Source: a virus
IMG/VR virus record: IMGVR_UViG_3300027621_000607
Coordinates: 1-21,497 of that record
DNA length: 21,497 nucleotides
Strand: one strand, 5' to 3'
Under the pieces are notes generated by a model. That model ran no database searches and was not told the DNA's origin. It worked only from the letters and a program-made list of their open reading frames with translations. Every line of letters begins with the position of its first letter. Position 1 is the stretch's first letter. The position numbers and the translations under genes are program-made. This document shows positions 5,022 to 16,968 of this stretch, piece after piece.

Positions 5022-5030
5022 AGGTAAAAG

Positions 5031-5058
5031 AACTTATCTTACATTACTCTGTTGTCAA
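5031..5058 (-). promoter_or_regulatory. Promoter candidate for the leftward packaging operon
   Basis: Read on the minus strand there is a perfect TTGACA at 5058-5053, a 16-base spacer and TAAGTT at 5036-5031. The -35 is consensus; the -10 is weak. Transcription would start a few bases before ATG 5021, giving almost no 5' leader, which would fit the missing SD. The C- and T-runs just upstream (5061-5080) could serve as an upstream element. Confidence 0.35.
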
Positions 5059-5114
5059 CACCCCCCTTTTTTATAAAAAAAACTACAGGTCAAGATGATA
5101 TCGGTAGGGCTTAA

Positions 5115-5129
5115 TGAGACTCAGTCTCA
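5115..5129. repeat. 15-bp perfect palindrome (operator candidate)
   Basis: TGAGACT and AGTCTCA flank a single central C, giving a perfect two-fold site in the divergent control region between the leftward and rightward operons. A site of this size suits a dimeric DNA-binding protein. No partner can be named. Confidence 0.5.
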
Positions 5130-5133
5130 ATAG

Positions 5134-5169
5134 CCCCCCCCCTCATATACCGCTCATATAACTCATATA
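5134..5169. repeat. C9 run followed by three CTCATATA direct repeats
   Basis: A run of nine C residues (5134-5142) leads into three copies of CTCATATA starting at 5142, 5153 and 5162, i.e. 11 and 9 bases apart, close to one helical turn. A matching run of nine G residues lies at 5253-5261. Spacing near a helical turn suggests cooperative protein binding on one face of the DNA. Confidence 0.55.
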
Positions 5170-5337
5170 TATATGCTCGTTTGACCTTTTATGCTCGAAA
5201 GTAATTGATTACTATATGCAACTATACGAAGTTATATGATTACCGTTGCGGTGGGGGGGGGTCGATGCTAGTATGTAGGGGTAGGTTAAACACCTACATT
5301 TGACAGTCTAATCAGATAAGGGGAAGGAAGGAGACAG

Positions 5338-5376
5338 ATGCCAACCCAAACCAGTCGGAGTAGTATCGAGTCCTAA
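5338..5376 (+). CDS. 12-codon mini-ORF with a strong SD (leader peptide candidate)
   Basis: GGAAGGAAGGAG ends five bases before ATG 5338, one of the best SD sequences in the window, and is followed by MPTQTSRSSIES and a stop at 5374-5376. The next real gene begins 220 bases later. Such a well-marked start with only 12 codons suggests a translated leader peptide or a decayed gene start. Nothing else supports it. Confidence 0.35.
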   Translation: MPTQTSRSSIES

Positions 5377-5541
5377 ATCTCGAACCGAACACAGGGAACA
5401 AAGCCATAAGCCCACCAATGCGGGATGGACACCAGCAGGCCAATTCGATGCATCGTATCATAATTCCGGACTCATATAGGAGTGGGGTATAGTCGTATCC
5501 CAATCGTGTTAGCGATAAGGGCATCTAATCCGAAAGTGAAG

Positions 5542-5595
5542 ATGGCTCGGCTAGGTCTAGGACAAAGGACTAGACGCATAGGAAGGAATAACTAA
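5542..5595 (+). CDS. 17-aa upstream ORF ending at the next gene's start
   Basis: MARLGLGQRTRRIGRNN runs through the SD of the following gene and stops two bases before its ATG at 5598. This arrangement would couple translation of the two frames. The peptide is very basic. The upstream SD is weak, so this may be chance. Confidence 0.25.
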   Translation: MARLGLGQRTRRIGRNN

Positions 5596-5597
5596 CT

Positions 5598-8169: not shown

Positions 8170-9723
8170 TTACTGGATTTCTTCGCCTCCTTTGTTGTTT
8201 TTGCTGTAGAACTCGAATTCAAGTCCAGCAAACGATTGAGCGAGGCCATCCAATGCTGGAAGTGGCTTGTCACCAGCACTAATGTATGAGTGGTTAAACT
8301 TCATAATACGCTGGAAAACGTATACTTTCAAGTCCATCGGTGCATTGGATTGCATGAAGTCCTCAAGCGTTGCAACACGAGTGTTGGGTTGAGCCATCCA
8401 CTGAAGGAAGCGAACCCAGTAACGCAACTTGTGGTAGTTAAGCGTTGCCATCCCGAGACGCACTTCAATCGTTCGATGCTCTGCCCAACATTGAGTGTTG
8501 ATAGCACAATATCGACTATCTTCACCAAACTTATGGATAGAACAATACGAATTATTGGCACGCTTGCGATGAACCAAGCGATGTGCCCATTCACTCATTG
8601 CATCACGCATTTTAACGGCTGTTCGCATCGCACTTTGTGCTGTTCGTCCACGCATATCAATATGAACGTGATTACCACAAGAGCGATTAATACGTGCTCC
8701 GCTTGCAGTAATGGCTTTGAGTGTTTTCCTAACGTTATCCCACTCATCTTCGCTATTGCCATTGAGGAAGTAAGTCCACTCTTGATAGCGAGCAGTAGAT
8801 TCGCCGCTATCTATAGGATTGATAGAACCATCAGTCTTGAACTGCATCCAAGGGTATTGAGGGTAATCATCTTCGCACCAGTCCATAATCTCTGATTTAG
8901 TTTCTGCAATGAACTCTAACTCTAAACCAAGGCAATGACCTTCTGGACGCACACGTTCAGCGAGTTTTTTATGGAACTCATTCAAATTAGCGTTCCAACG
9001 TATTGGAGCAAGATTACGAATGAGGTCATACGCTTTATTGAGTTTAGTGCGAGGACTTTCATCAACAAGATGTTGAGTTATACACTCCTGTTTATGTATC
9101 GTGAGCGTATGTTTCAGCCGAGTATGACGCATAATGGTTTGAATTAAGTATTGCCAGTCAGCCCAGTGCATAACTATCTGCTGTTCTACATCATATTCAA
9201 CAACATCAGCGAAGGTTTTAACCTTTTTAGTGAGGTCAAAGCCTTGCTCAAATGCAACAGGTTCTTGACTTCCATAAACATTATACTGTAACACAGGCTT
9301 CTGAAGGCAATGAAGCCAAGCAACGTGGTCATAGCGATAATATTCATAAAGATATTGAGCGTGCATATGCATCCACGTCAATAAACTCATGTTATCTTTA
9401 CCACCTAACTTCACTTTCGATGCTTGAAGCATACGACTGGCTGAAGTCTTTAACGAGTTCATTTGATAACCGTTATTGTATCTTGGATTCCAGTTAGGCG
9501 AACCCTGCAATGCTACTTTAAGCATAAGAGGGTGCTGACGCAATTCAATTGGAAGAGCATTCCATTGTGCGACTGCATCCGCAGTGCTGTAGTTAGCAAG
9601 TCCACTAGAGTGCTTGAGGAGAACAAACGCTTTGAGTTGCTGTTTGCGAAGACTGCACTTACCGACAAGTTGCAATCCGTTATACTTACTGTTGAGGTTT
9701 TTAGCCTCAGTGGGAGCCGTCAT
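8170..9723 (-). CDS. Putative amidoligase (COOH-NH2 ligase fold) with a long N-terminal extension
   Basis: This 517-aa protein carries the signature of the amidoligase family, glutamine-synthetase-like ligases thought to join a carboxyl to an amine using ATP. Visible motifs are GLELEF (266-271), KTDGS (296-300), a glutamate-containing strand YQEWTYF (313-319), CGNHVHID (349-356) with the His-x-His-x-Asp pattern, and RTIEVR (417-422). The acidic and histidine residues would bind metal and ATP. About 255 residues precede the catalytic domain; they are Trp/Tyr/His-rich, helical and unfamiliar. The last residues (AGLEFEFYSKNN) echo the first catalytic strand, as if a second copy had been cut off. 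Upstream in the operon is a class II glutamine amidotransferase, a plausible ammonia donor. The substrate is unknown. Confidence 0.8.
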   Translation of the reverse strand: MTAPTEAKNLNSKYNGLQLVGKCSLRKQQLKAFVLLKHSSGLANYSTADAVAQWNALPIELRQHPLMLKVALQGSPNWNPRYNNGYQMNSLKTSASRMLQASKVKLGGKDNMSLLTWMHMHAQYLYEYYRYDHVAWLHCLQKPVLQYNVYGSQEPVAFEQGFDLTKKVKTFADVVEYDVEQQIVMHWADWQYLIQTIMRHTRLKHTLTIHKQECITQHLVDESPRTKLNKAYDLIRNLAPIRWNANLNEFHKKLAERVRPEGHCLGLELEFIAETKSEIMDWCEDDYPQYPWMQFKTDGSINPIDSGESTARYQEWTYFLNGNSEDEWDNVRKTLKAITASGARINRSCGNHVHIDMRGRTAQSAMRTAVKMRDAMSEWAHRLVHRKRANNSYCSIHKFGEDSRYCAINTQCWAEHRTIEVRLGMATLNYHKLRYWVRFLQWMAQPNTRVATLEDFMQSNAPMDLKVYVFQRIMKFNHSYISAGDKPLPALDGLAQSFAGLEFEFYSKNNKGGEEIQ

Positions 9724-9786: not shown

Positions 9787-10872
9787 TTACTGCTTCCACG
9801 GCTTGTTGAACTTGCGAGCGTTTTTGTGCATTTGAGCACGCACTTGTGCCTGCTGTTTTGCTGCTTCATCTAAGTCAGGTGCAGGAGTGTTAGGAGTAGG
9901 AGTGCTTGCGGCAGTAACAATACTAGGCACAGTAGGAGTAGTTGGTCTAGCAACTCCACTGTAACCATAATCATCATCCCAAGCAGCACCACTATAACCT
10001 ACAGCACCAGCACTGCCTAAACTACGATAGACACTAGCAATGCTTCCATACGACATTGTGCCTTTGAATGCCTTGAAGTCCTTTGAACTCACTAAACCGT
10101 CTTGATGGAACGTATGCATTACATACGCTTCAAGCATAAAGGCATCAGTGATAGTAGGGTTCTTGATATCCATAAACTTACAGAGCATATTGCTAACTTC
10201 AGTGCAATGTGCTGGGTCAGTGCAAACGACGTATTGCTTCAGTTCTAGAATGTATTGCACGTGAAGCGGTGCTCTGTCGTCTCTCAATGCGAACATTTCG
10301 CCTGCTGGATTAATGCCCACAATAGCAGCATAACCAGCAATGCCTTCTGTAAACGATTGCTCACCATTAAGGTAGAGAAAGCAGTTAAGCAGATGCTCTG
10401 AATCACACGTAGTTTGCAATGGCAGTTTAATGCCACTCCATTCTACAACTCCATTGTGGGCAATAGTCCATTGCGAGCCATTATGCGTCCCAGTAAAAGG
10501 ATGCGTATTAGCAATGACTTTGCCACACGTTGCAGTGCGTCCGTGTGCTATGAATGGTGCATTAACTATCTTCCCACTAGGCATCACGCCTTGCGAGTCG
10601 AAGTCTACCCCTTCTTTCAAAACCGTTTTAATTCCTGCTGGAATCAAGTTACGGCTTTGTTTGAGAGTGCCCATACCAGTAACGGCATTGGGGTTGAGAT
10701 ATCTTTCGATATACACACCCAATGACAGATTTGATATGTCACCAGTTCCAATTGCGAAACCGTAGCCATCTCGTTGAGATGAACCTAGCAGTTCGCTCGT
10801 TTTCTTAATTAGGGCATTTGATTGTTTCCTGCCCTTGACTGACAAGCCACTAATGGCTATTAACTTGCACAT
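9787..10872 (-). CDS. Class II glutamine amidotransferase (Ntn-hydrolase)
   Basis: The protein begins MCKLIAISG, so Cys2 becomes the N-terminal nucleophile after Met removal. Other class II motifs follow in order: RDGYGFA (34-40), AHGRTAT (109-115), HPF (124-126), AHNG (138-141) and the glutamine-binding CDSEHLL (156-162). It releases ammonia from glutamine. At 361 aa it has one Ntn domain (about 1-280) and a C-terminal tail rich in Pro/Thr/Ala that ends basic (KNARKFNKPWKQ), but no synthetase domain, so the acceptor must be another protein. The amidoligase 63 bases downstream is the obvious candidate. The start lies in an A-rich leader six bases after the small membrane gene. Confidence 0.92.
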   Translation of the reverse strand: MCKLIAISGLSVKGRKQSNALIKKTSELLGSSQRDGYGFAIGTGDISNLSLGVYIERYLNPNAVTGMGTLKQSRNLIPAGIKTVLKEGVDFDSQGVMPSGKIVNAPFIAHGRTATCGKVIANTHPFTGTHNGSQWTIAHNGVVEWSGIKLPLQTTCDSEHLLNCFLYLNGEQSFTEGIAGYAAIVGINPAGEMFALRDDRAPLHVQYILELKQYVVCTDPAHCTEVSNMLCKFMDIKNPTITDAFMLEAYVMHTFHQDGLVSSKDFKAFKGTMSYGSIASVYRSLGSAGAVGYSGAAWDDDYGYSGVARPTTPTVPSIVTAASTPTPNTPAPDLDEAAKQQAQVRAQMHKNARKFNKPWKQ

Positions 10873-14770: not shown

Positions 14771-15625
14771 ATGCCTAACACGAAAATCGACAGCATCACA
14801 GACCAGATTAACTCGGAGTCTTATGACCTCATTGACGCTATGAATTACTCTGGCCTCAAAGAGTTCCTCATCTCCCCTGCCCACTACAAGCACTCCCAAG
14901 ACTCGGAGGACGACAGCGACAACCCAGCCTTTAAGATTGGTCGTGCCTTGCATATGGCTGTGTTTCAGCCGTTTGCTTTTGTTAATAATTGGGCTGTTGC
15001 TCCAGAGTGCGACCGCAGAACGACTGCTGGAAAACTTATCTGGAACGATTTTCAGTTGCACAATCTTGCCAAGGAAGTTCTTTCTGCTACCGAATATGAA
15101 TTGGTCTGTGCTATGACTGCAAAAGTTAAAGCCAACCGCTTTTTCAAAGATACTGTAACCGATTTAAACTTTAACGAGTGCGGTGTATTCACTAATTTGT
15201 GGGGTTCTAATGTGAAAGGACGACTCGACACTTACGACCCGATTAACAACGTAATTTTCGACTTAAAAAGCATTAAGGTTCCGCCAACCGCAAAGGCTAT
15301 GCGTCACGAAATCTTTGCCAGAGGTTATCATCTCCAAAGTGCTTTGTATAAGGAAATGGTTTACTCAATTACCAAGAAGATGCCTAAGTTTGTGTTTGGT
15401 TTCATTGAAAAAAATGAGCCGTTTTCCATAAACTTTGCTACCATCGGGCAGACCTATCATCATAGTGCCTGTATCCAAATACAGACCGCATTGTGCCGTT
15501 ATGAAAACTGCAAGGCAGAGAACAAGTGGTTTGGATTTGATAACGAGTTTGAGCCGTTGGTAATCTCTCCAGATTACGGACTTGACGACAGCGTTGAAAT
15601 CGGACAAGACATTCTCGATGACTAA
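14771..15625 (+). CDS. RecE/exonuclease VIII-like PDDEXK nuclease
   Basis: The 284-aa protein shows the layout of the phage PDDEXK exonuclease family (DUF3799, exodeoxyribonuclease VIII-like). It has GRALHMAVF (57-65) with a conserved His, Glu136 in NECGVF, GRLDTYD (150-156) with catalytic Asp153, IFDLKS (162-167) with Asp164 and Lys166, and the QSALY motif (189-193). It would resect double-stranded ends 5' to 3' to expose single strands for the annealing protein encoded downstream. I start at ATG 14771; a TTG 12 codons earlier would overlap rusA. It ends in an 8-base overlap with the next gene. Confidence 0.9.
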   Translation: MPNTKIDSITDQINSESYDLIDAMNYSGLKEFLISPAHYKHSQDSEDDSDNPAFKIGRALHMAVFQPFAFVNNWAVAPECDRRTTAGKLIWNDFQLHNLAKEVLSATEYELVCAMTAKVKANRFFKDTVTDLNFNECGVFTNLWGSNVKGRLDTYDPINNVIFDLKSIKVPPTAKAMRHEIFARGYHLQSALYKEMVYSITKKMPKFVFGFIEKNEPFSINFATIGQTYHHSACIQIQTALCRYENCKAENKWFGFDNEFEPLVISPDYGLDDSVEIGQDILDD

Positions 15626-16295
15626 CGAAAACCACAATATGTTCTCTGGGGTATTTATACCAAGAGAAGTCTTACTAGACGCTGACCTATCAGCGTCCTG
15701 TAAGATTATTTACGCCATCATCCAGTCGCTCGATAACGCAGATGGATGTTATGCCTCAAACGATTACATTGGCAAGATGATTGACTTATCCGAGCGTAGC
15801 GTAAGCGATGCCGTGTCAGCACTCGTTGACAAAGGATATGTCAGTCGCTTTGTCGATAACGACAAGGGCATCCGTATCCTTCACACCGCCTCTAGCCGTT
15901 CTTTAGCCCAGCAGAAATCTGCTACCCCCCCTAGCGAAAATCTGCTACCCCCCACGCAGAAAACTGCTACCAATAAGACTAAGAATAATAATAGAAGAAT
16001 AAATACAGGGGACACTAAGACTTTGGTTCTTCCTCCTTTGCCTCACGGACAGGCTTTATGGGACGCTTGGGATAAGTGGGTAGCCTACAAAAAAGAACGT
16101 AATACACCCTTGACGAACTCAACAATCCTAAGCACATTAACCTTCCTAACACAACTAAACGAAAATGACGCAATCCTCTCAATCGAACTTTCAATCCGTA
16201 ATGGCTGGTCTGGCCTCTTCGCTCCCCAACAGTCAAAGTGGAAGCAAGCCTCACAGTCAAAACCCCTCACCAAGAGCGACCATGAGTCATTCTAA
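15618..16295 (+). CDS. Replication initiator-like wHTH protein (lambda O-like layout)
   Basis: The 225-aa protein has an N-terminal winged helix-turn-helix (about 12-80: FIPREVLLDADLSASCKIIY, then YIGKMIDLSERSVSDAVSAL and VDKGYVSRF) of the type found in phage replication proteins. A Ser/Pro/Thr/Asn-rich linker (about 92-135) follows, then a C-terminal helical domain (144-202) ending NGWSGLF, a phrase common at the end of such initiators. The linker-coding DNA holds three iterons and an A/T-rich stretch, as in lambda O. The ATG overlaps the RecE-like stop (ATGACTAA), and the DnaC-like loader follows, the same order as lambda O then P. It would bind the origin and recruit the loader. Confidence 0.85.
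   Translation: MTNENHNMFSGVFIPREVLLDADLSASCKIIYAIIQSLDNADGCYASNDYIGKMIDLSERSVSDAVSALVDKGYVSRFVDNDKGIRILHTASSRSLAQQKSATPPSENLLPPTQKTATNKTKNNNRRINTGDTKTLVLPPLPHGQALWDAWDKWVAYKKERNTPLTNSTILSTLTFLTQLNENDAILSIELSIRNGWSGLFAPQQSKWKQASQSKPLTKSDHESF
15905..16012 (+). other. Candidate replication origin: iterons plus A/T-rich unwinding stretch
   Basis: The three iterons (15911-15971) are followed at once by 15972-16008, a purine- and A/T-rich stretch (AATAAGACTAAGAATAATAA and beyond) with very few C or G. Iterons next to an A/T-rich block inside the initiator gene is the layout of the lambda origin. The initiator would bind the iterons, melt the A/T-rich block and load helicase through the downstream DnaC-like protein. 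Confidence 0.6.
15911..15974 (+). repeat. Three iterons inside the initiator gene
   Basis: GCAGAAATCTGCTACCCCCC (15911-15930), GCGAAAATCTGCTACCCCCC (15934-15953) and GCAGAAAACTGCTACC (15956-15971) lie 23 and 22 bases apart, about two helical turns. The first has a perfect GCAGA/TCTGC inverted repeat around AA. The middle copy is in a different reading frame from the outer two (it encodes ENLLPP, not QKSATP or QKTAT), so the DNA and not the peptide is repeated. Confidence 0.85.
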
Positions 16296-16968
16296 GTGCG
16301 AGTGCGGTGGTGACCGAGTGCCTATGCTGAAGGACGGCAAGGTTATCTGGCCCGACTATGCTTGCCCAGCCTGTGAGTGCAAGTATGACCTTAGCCGTGA
16401 CGGACGCTATCGTGGTGGCGTTTGGGCATACGAACCAGTGGGTATGCCTGTCGAGTATACCAAAACAGTTCCTAGCCTCATTCCGTGCCCAAAGATGCAG
16501 TCCGTAGCGAACACTTGGGAGAACTGGAAGGAACGCTCGCTCCTGCTCCACGGAACCACCCGCCTTGGCAAGACCCGAGCCGCCTTTGAGGTTGCCCGCA
16601 GACATTGGAAGGCTAACTTCAAGAAGCAGACATTCTTGACTATGCGTAAGTTGGAGCAACTCATTGAACAGGGATACGGCAAGTTTGACCATTCGTCCCG
16701 CATCCAGAGCCTCATTGATGTCCCATTCCTGTTTATTGACGACTTGGGCAAGGAGAAAATGACTGCTCGTATTGCAACTGACCTGTTTGCCATTATTGAC
16801 GAACGCACCATCCACCACCGCCCGACTGTCATTACGACCAACTTTACGTCTGGTAGTCTTATTGAAAGATTTGACGACAAGGAGTTGGGGCTTGCCTTAA
16901 TCGGTCGTTTCAAGGATTACTTTGACCTCGTTGGGGCAACCGCAAAAGAAATTGAAAATAACCCTTGA
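16282..16968 (+). CDS. DnaC/IstB-like helicase loader ATPase
   Basis: I choose ATG 16282 (228 aa), which overlaps the initiator stop by 14 bases. The frame is open 39 codons further up (ATG 16165, in an A-rich context), but that part is Ser/Pro-rich and overlaps the conserved end of the initiator. N-terminal cysteines C6, C8, C28 and C31 (CECGG, then CPACEC) look like a zinc ribbon. The AAA+ core has Walker A GTTRLGKT (91-98), Walker B FLFIDD (149-154), sensor I VITTN (183-187) and an arginine-finger-like GRF (208-210). DnaC-type loaders bring the replicative helicase to the origin. Position after the initiator supports this role; IstB-type transposition proteins are related, but no transposase is present. 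Confidence 0.9.
   Translation: MSHSKCECGGDRVPMLKDGKVIWPDYACPACECKYDLSRDGRYRGGVWAYEPVGMPVEYTKTVPSLIPCPKMQSVANTWENWKERSLLLHGTTRLGKTRAAFEVARRHWKANFKKQTFLTMRKLEQLIEQGYGKFDHSSRIQSLIDVPFLFIDDLGKEKMTARIATDLFAIIDERTIHHRPTVITTNFTSGSLIERFDDKELGLALIGRFKDYFDLVGATAKEIENNP

Follow-up and report, generated by a model that had tools for sequence, protein, structure and literature searches.

In phage lambda, dimers of the initiator O bind to dyad iterons and build the O-some, upon which an AT-rich tract opens and the P-DnaB complex is received (PMC3985674; PMC7466680). Phage SPP1 carries one origin, oriL, within gene 38 and another, oriR, in an intergenic position, with gp38 binding both (PMC6316719). In the RepA_N plasmid pSK41, the origin likewise lies inside rep, where the binding boxes occupy the linker-coding part of the gene and the linker peptide is dispensable (PMC5703833). 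Here we analysed a 21,497-nt stretch of viral DNA (the window), for which an initial annotation had proposed a similar arrangement in the manner of lambda ori and O. Consistent with that proposal, which gains support from the spacing and dyads conserved in relatives and from intergenic copies of the module, positions 15907-16008 most probably form a replication origin of the theta type that lies within the initiator gene. The locus comprises the following features:

15618-16295, plus strand: initiator gene, 225 aa (Pfam HTH_36, 6e-8; PHROG 678, 1.7e-17; AlphaFold model)
15907-15929, plus strand: iteron 1, with its dyad core at 15910-15923 (AGCAGAAATCTGCT)
15930-15952, plus strand: iteron 2, with its core at 15933-15946 (AGCGAAAATCTGCT), in a frame different from that of copies 1 and 3
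15952-15974, plus strand: iteron 3, with its core at 15955-15968 (CGCAGAAAACTGCT)
15972-16008, plus strand: probable DNA unwinding element, AT-rich and placed 3' of the iterons, of low stability and matched in relatives
16165-16968, plus strand: DnaC/IstB-like helicase loader gene (IstB, 2.7e-11; PHROG 50, DnaC-like loader, 1.2e-20)

The iterons are three 23-bp repeats that span 15907-15974, with start-to-start distances of 23 and 22 bp. They are genuine repeats: allowing up to three mismatches, the core pattern occurs at exactly these three sites in the 21.5 kb, against 0.14 expected by chance, and three core sites were found in none of 100 shuffles scanned with the same pattern. Each iteron is itself a dyad with an A-rich centre, a feature absent from the initial annotation. 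Iteron 1 reads AGCAGA-AA-TCTGCT and iteron 3 reads GCAG-AAAA-CTGC, while iteron 2 is an imperfect dyad with a degraded left arm. At the DNA level, the initiator gene contains several dyad repeats, as a lambda-type nested origin does.

The repeats could in principle reflect peptide units repeated in tandem in the linker, which is rich in Pro, Gln and Thr and is repetitive as a peptide in some relatives, or they could have arisen by chance. The codon phases of iterons 1 to 3 are, however, 2, 1 and 2, placing the middle copy off-frame as had been noticed initially. Among 52 triplets compared across relatives, the copies lie in three different frames in 40 and in two frames in 12, and no relative has all copies in one frame. 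When codons were shuffled synonymously with the protein kept, the triplet score of 42 was reached in 0 of 5,000 shuffles (null mean 29.2, maximum 36). Together with the intergenic copies found in relatives, the frame shifts and the synonymous null led us to reject a peptide repeat or chance, to which we assign a negligible probability.

An A/T-rich stretch follows the iterons directly, an early observation that the stability ranking and the synonymous shuffles both bear out. When non-overlapping 37-bp segments of the 21,497-nt window are ranked by stability, only two are less stable than the one that starts at 15972, and the AT content of 15976-16012 lies above the synonymous expectation, with 165 of 5,000 shuffles equally high. 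Relatives carry an AT-rich element of related sequence at the same place. Positions 15972-16008 are probably a DNA unwinding element, placed next to the repeats as in lambda-type origins. GC skew is dominated by gene orientation and gives no support for an origin position.

In the AlphaFold model, the initiator comprises a confidently predicted HTH_36 winged helix (about residues 10-92), a disordered linker (residues 94-137, predicted pLDDT below 50) and a helical C-terminal domain (residues 145-195). Together, the iterons and the AT-rich DNA cover the codons for about residues 97-131, within the disordered stretch, so that coordinates and predicted pLDDT agree with the original placement of three iterons, spaced by 23 and 22 bp, in the linker-coding part of the gene. 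The protein had been described as unrelated-looking to its lambda counterpart, a description that does not hold: PHROG 678, 'replication initiation O-like', matches residues 42-215 (E = 1.7e-17) and also matches lambda O (E = 1.7e-35). Because both proteins match this family, a remote kinship of the initiator to O-like proteins is detectable at the profile level. When initiator profiles were compared directly with lambda O by itself, no match was obtained. Unlike lambda O, which matches Pfam Phage_rep_O (PF04492) at 5.7e-36, the window initiator has no match to that family and matches HTH_36. The initiator ends in DHESF (window 16278-16292); a DHxxF or DHxxxF motif occurs at the C-terminus in 41 of 55 non-redundant viral initiators and could be a loader-docking peptide.

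By Foldseek, the top solved structures include 4pql, 4pt7 and 5kbj, at an E-value of 1.5e-3 that does not separate them from other winged helices. Their titles describe an initiator and a Rep-DNA complex, and we take them to be RepA_N plasmid initiators. With these nearest folds, a winged-helix N-terminal domain and repeats in the linker-coding part, the locus resembles the pSK41-type RepA_N arrangement. The latter differs in belonging to a plasmid and in having a C-terminal domain that interacts with primase, with no sequence match to the window shown.

The helicase loader gene lies directly downstream of the initiator, as in lambda-type origins, and its IstB and PHROG 50 matches agree with the suggestion that a DnaC-like loader takes the place of lambda P. 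With a start at 16165, the gene shares 131 nt with the end of the initiator gene; an alternative start is found at 16281. The ATG at 16165, with the frame open from there, is kept in L005-L009, five relatives of which two, L007 and L008, lack an ATG at the site corresponding to the alternative start. The initiator-loader pair is surrounded by genes for an exonuclease, an ERF annealing protein and RusA. A scan of 20 window proteins recognised no DnaB-like helicase, and no portal, capsid or tail genes were recognised in the window. The window is probably a genome fragment, since it is about half as long as the contigs of its relatives and has no recognised structural genes of these kinds. Elsewhere in the window, an amidoligase-like protein (PHROG 2443, 3.7e-12) is encoded at 8173-9723, next to the gene for a 361-aa protein of unknown function (9790-10872).

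Judged by its sequence, then, the window holds every element of the lambda scheme, with a DnaC-like loader replacing P. The likeness to lambda ori extends to dyad iterons in mid-gene, the A-rich centre, the AT-rich tract on the 3' side, a loader gene overlapping the initiator end and an O-like initiator. In contrast to lambda, the window has three iterons instead of four, a different arm sequence and a loader of the DnaC/IstB-like kind, and the hosts are likely other ones. Direct repeats and an AT-rich unwinding element inside the initiator gene are also features of SPP1 by its published description (PMC6316719), although SPP1 encodes its own DnaB-like helicase, of a kind that was not recognised among the scanned window proteins.

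We gathered viral contigs with the loader and an initiator profile, and scored a triplet as significant when no more than 1 in 150 synonymous shuffles equalled or bettered it. The same method recovers the annotated iterons of lambda. A significant triplet was found at the same gene position (mostly about residues 87-103) in 44 of 54 non-redundant viral initiator genes, with spacings mostly of 22 or 23 bp. In four of the ten genes below the criterion (L085, L103, L105 and L111) the best triplet is nonetheless at the same place, with a spacing of 23/23, while the AT-rich relatives L107, L126, L132 and L138 gave no clear triplet in the survey. Among cultured phages, 8 of 12 initiators scored at 0 of 200 shuffles and that of PMBT9 at 6 of 200; no significant triplet was found in the other three, from ANDSL2, phiLdb (in which the gene is fragmented) and a Latilactobacillus phage. 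Cultured phages with the same pattern have Pseudomonas, Cellulophaga, Lysinibacillus, Butyrivibrio, Oceanospirillum and Flavonifractor hosts. A genome scan yielded 19 short HTH_36 proteins (about 116-142 aa, mostly from Verrucomicrobiota MAGs), which are without the linker and the C-terminal domain and contain no triplet. Short HTH_36 relatives in genome contigs (L044-L064), again mostly Verrucomicrobiota MAGs, may give a clue to the phylum that the phage infects.

Iteron copy number among the relatives is three or four, and the arm sequences vary by group (GCAG, GCC(A/G)G, GTGAAG, TCGCC and others), while the dyad, the A-rich centre and the spacing persist. The initial annotation had held that relatives keeping the peptide and losing the repeats would speak against a nested origin; the reverse was observed, with spacing and dyads kept while linker peptide, frame, copy number and arms change. 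A three-repeat nested arrangement thus appears, from these comparisons, to be general among the relatives. The predicted recognition helix shifts with iteron class: the window has SERSVSDA, most initiators of the GCC(A/G)G class have S(E/D)S(S/A)VR, and most of those with GTGAAG iterons have RN(V/T/I)Q. Such covariation is as expected if this helix reads the iteron arms, as it may do.

A second module, consisting of three dyads and an AT-rich element, was found in all seven long, near-complete contigs of close relatives (G001-G007). It is situated between genes, upstream of a small gene that neighbours the terminase block, and lies 10.2-11.0 kb from the first module in five contigs and 8.5 kb from it in G007; in G006, where the second module appears inverted, the two are 10.7 kb apart if the contig is circularly permuted. 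Examples of such modules in close relatives are:

L161, 8880-9010: second intergenic module
L165, 4980-5080: second intergenic module
L167, 3720-3850: second intergenic module
L170, 15300-15425: second intergenic module

Being intergenic, the second module is free of coding constraint. Its dyads are mostly near perfect (GCCGGAAAACTGGC), with a diverged copy in G006, and G005, G006 and G007 have one more dyad past the AT-rich element. From this second, intergenic module it follows that selection on the module almost certainly acts at the DNA level, and the early view that DNA and not peptide is selected also fits the synonymous shuffles and the varying frames of relatives. The AT-rich elements of the two modules begin alike (ACCATATAGTAATA in G001, ACCATATAAGACTA in G004) and pair better within than between genomes, the true pairing being the best of 120 permutations across five genomes. 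With so few genomes, this within-genome match of the two elements is suggestive only.

Like SPP1, the close relatives of the window carry an additional module between genes, in most of them about 10 kb from the first; unlike in SPP1, a second module was not found in the window itself, where the core pattern has no further site in the 21.5 kb. The equivalent intergenic place, window 5022-5597, has no iterons, and its alignment to the modules of relatives is no better than that of shuffles. This region is AT-rich with C and G runs; within it, positions 5030-5300 contain a GAGACT-C-AGTCTC dyad as well as ATATA repeats and runs of C9 and G9. Since the window is probably a fragment, a second module elsewhere in the genome of this phage is possible. 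In the class with GTGAAG iterons, the same scans gave no second module in ten contigs.

The position of the second copy, near the terminase-side gene block, would suit a recombination, packaging or other protein-binding site unconnected with the initiator. We consider such a site very improbable, as the coding copy always lies within the initiator gene beside the loader, the arm class changes together with the predicted recognition helix of the initiator, and both lambda and SPP1 provide precedents for a nested origin.

The analysis shows the sequence architecture, the improbability of the triplet, the persistence of the repeats as DNA among relatives and the families to which the proteins belong; from these we infer how a nested origin would be bound, melted, loaded and used. 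Dimers of the winged-helix initiator would bind the three dyad iterons, whose 22-23 bp phasing would place them on similar helix faces so that the DNA wraps. By analogy with lambda, the resulting strain would open the adjoining AT-rich element. The C-terminal part of the initiator may then recruit the DnaC-like loader encoded by the neighbouring gene, which would bring the replicative helicase of the host, proposed here because no DnaB-like gene was recognised among the window proteins. The same DNA also codes for the flexible linker of the protein, in which almost any peptide is tolerated.

A different role for the repeats is that they are mainly regulatory, acting in the rep operon as sites of autorepression or copy control, or that they stall forks for a switch to concatemers, with replication starting elsewhere. 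Regulatory roles are common for initiator binding sites, gp38 on oriR of SPP1 has been proposed to stall forks (PMC6316719), and of two modules in close relatives one could be regulatory. The sites are, however, in mid-gene instead of at a promoter, and each of the two module copies has an AT-rich element immediately adjoining its last dyad. An operator would need neither an AT-rich neighbour nor a fixed phasing of 22-23 bp, and we regard a mainly regulatory or fork-stalling role as unlikely.

The origin in the window is thus very likely a real one of the lambda/SPP1 type, nested in an O-like initiator gene, a kind that is already known; what is added here is the generality of the iteron geometry and the two-module clade. 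We found no systematic description of an HTH_36 rule in the open-access literature searched, and one may exist elsewhere. Tentatively, and at somewhat less than an even chance, the observations may be read jointly: diverse HTH_36 initiators would encode their origin in the linker by one rule (three dyads 22-23 bp apart, each with an A-rich centre, and an AT-rich element on the 3' side), which would make origin and initiator specificity readable from sequence, and one clade would add a second, intergenic origin in which the unwinding elements change in concert, pointing to their sequence-specific recognition. The paired modules of the close relatives make coding and non-coding constraint on one element directly comparable. 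Natural initiator/iteron pairs that differ in their arms and share the same geometry are useful for studying site choice by winged helices. For this uncultured phage group, in which none had been located before as far as we found, the analysis gives testable origins.
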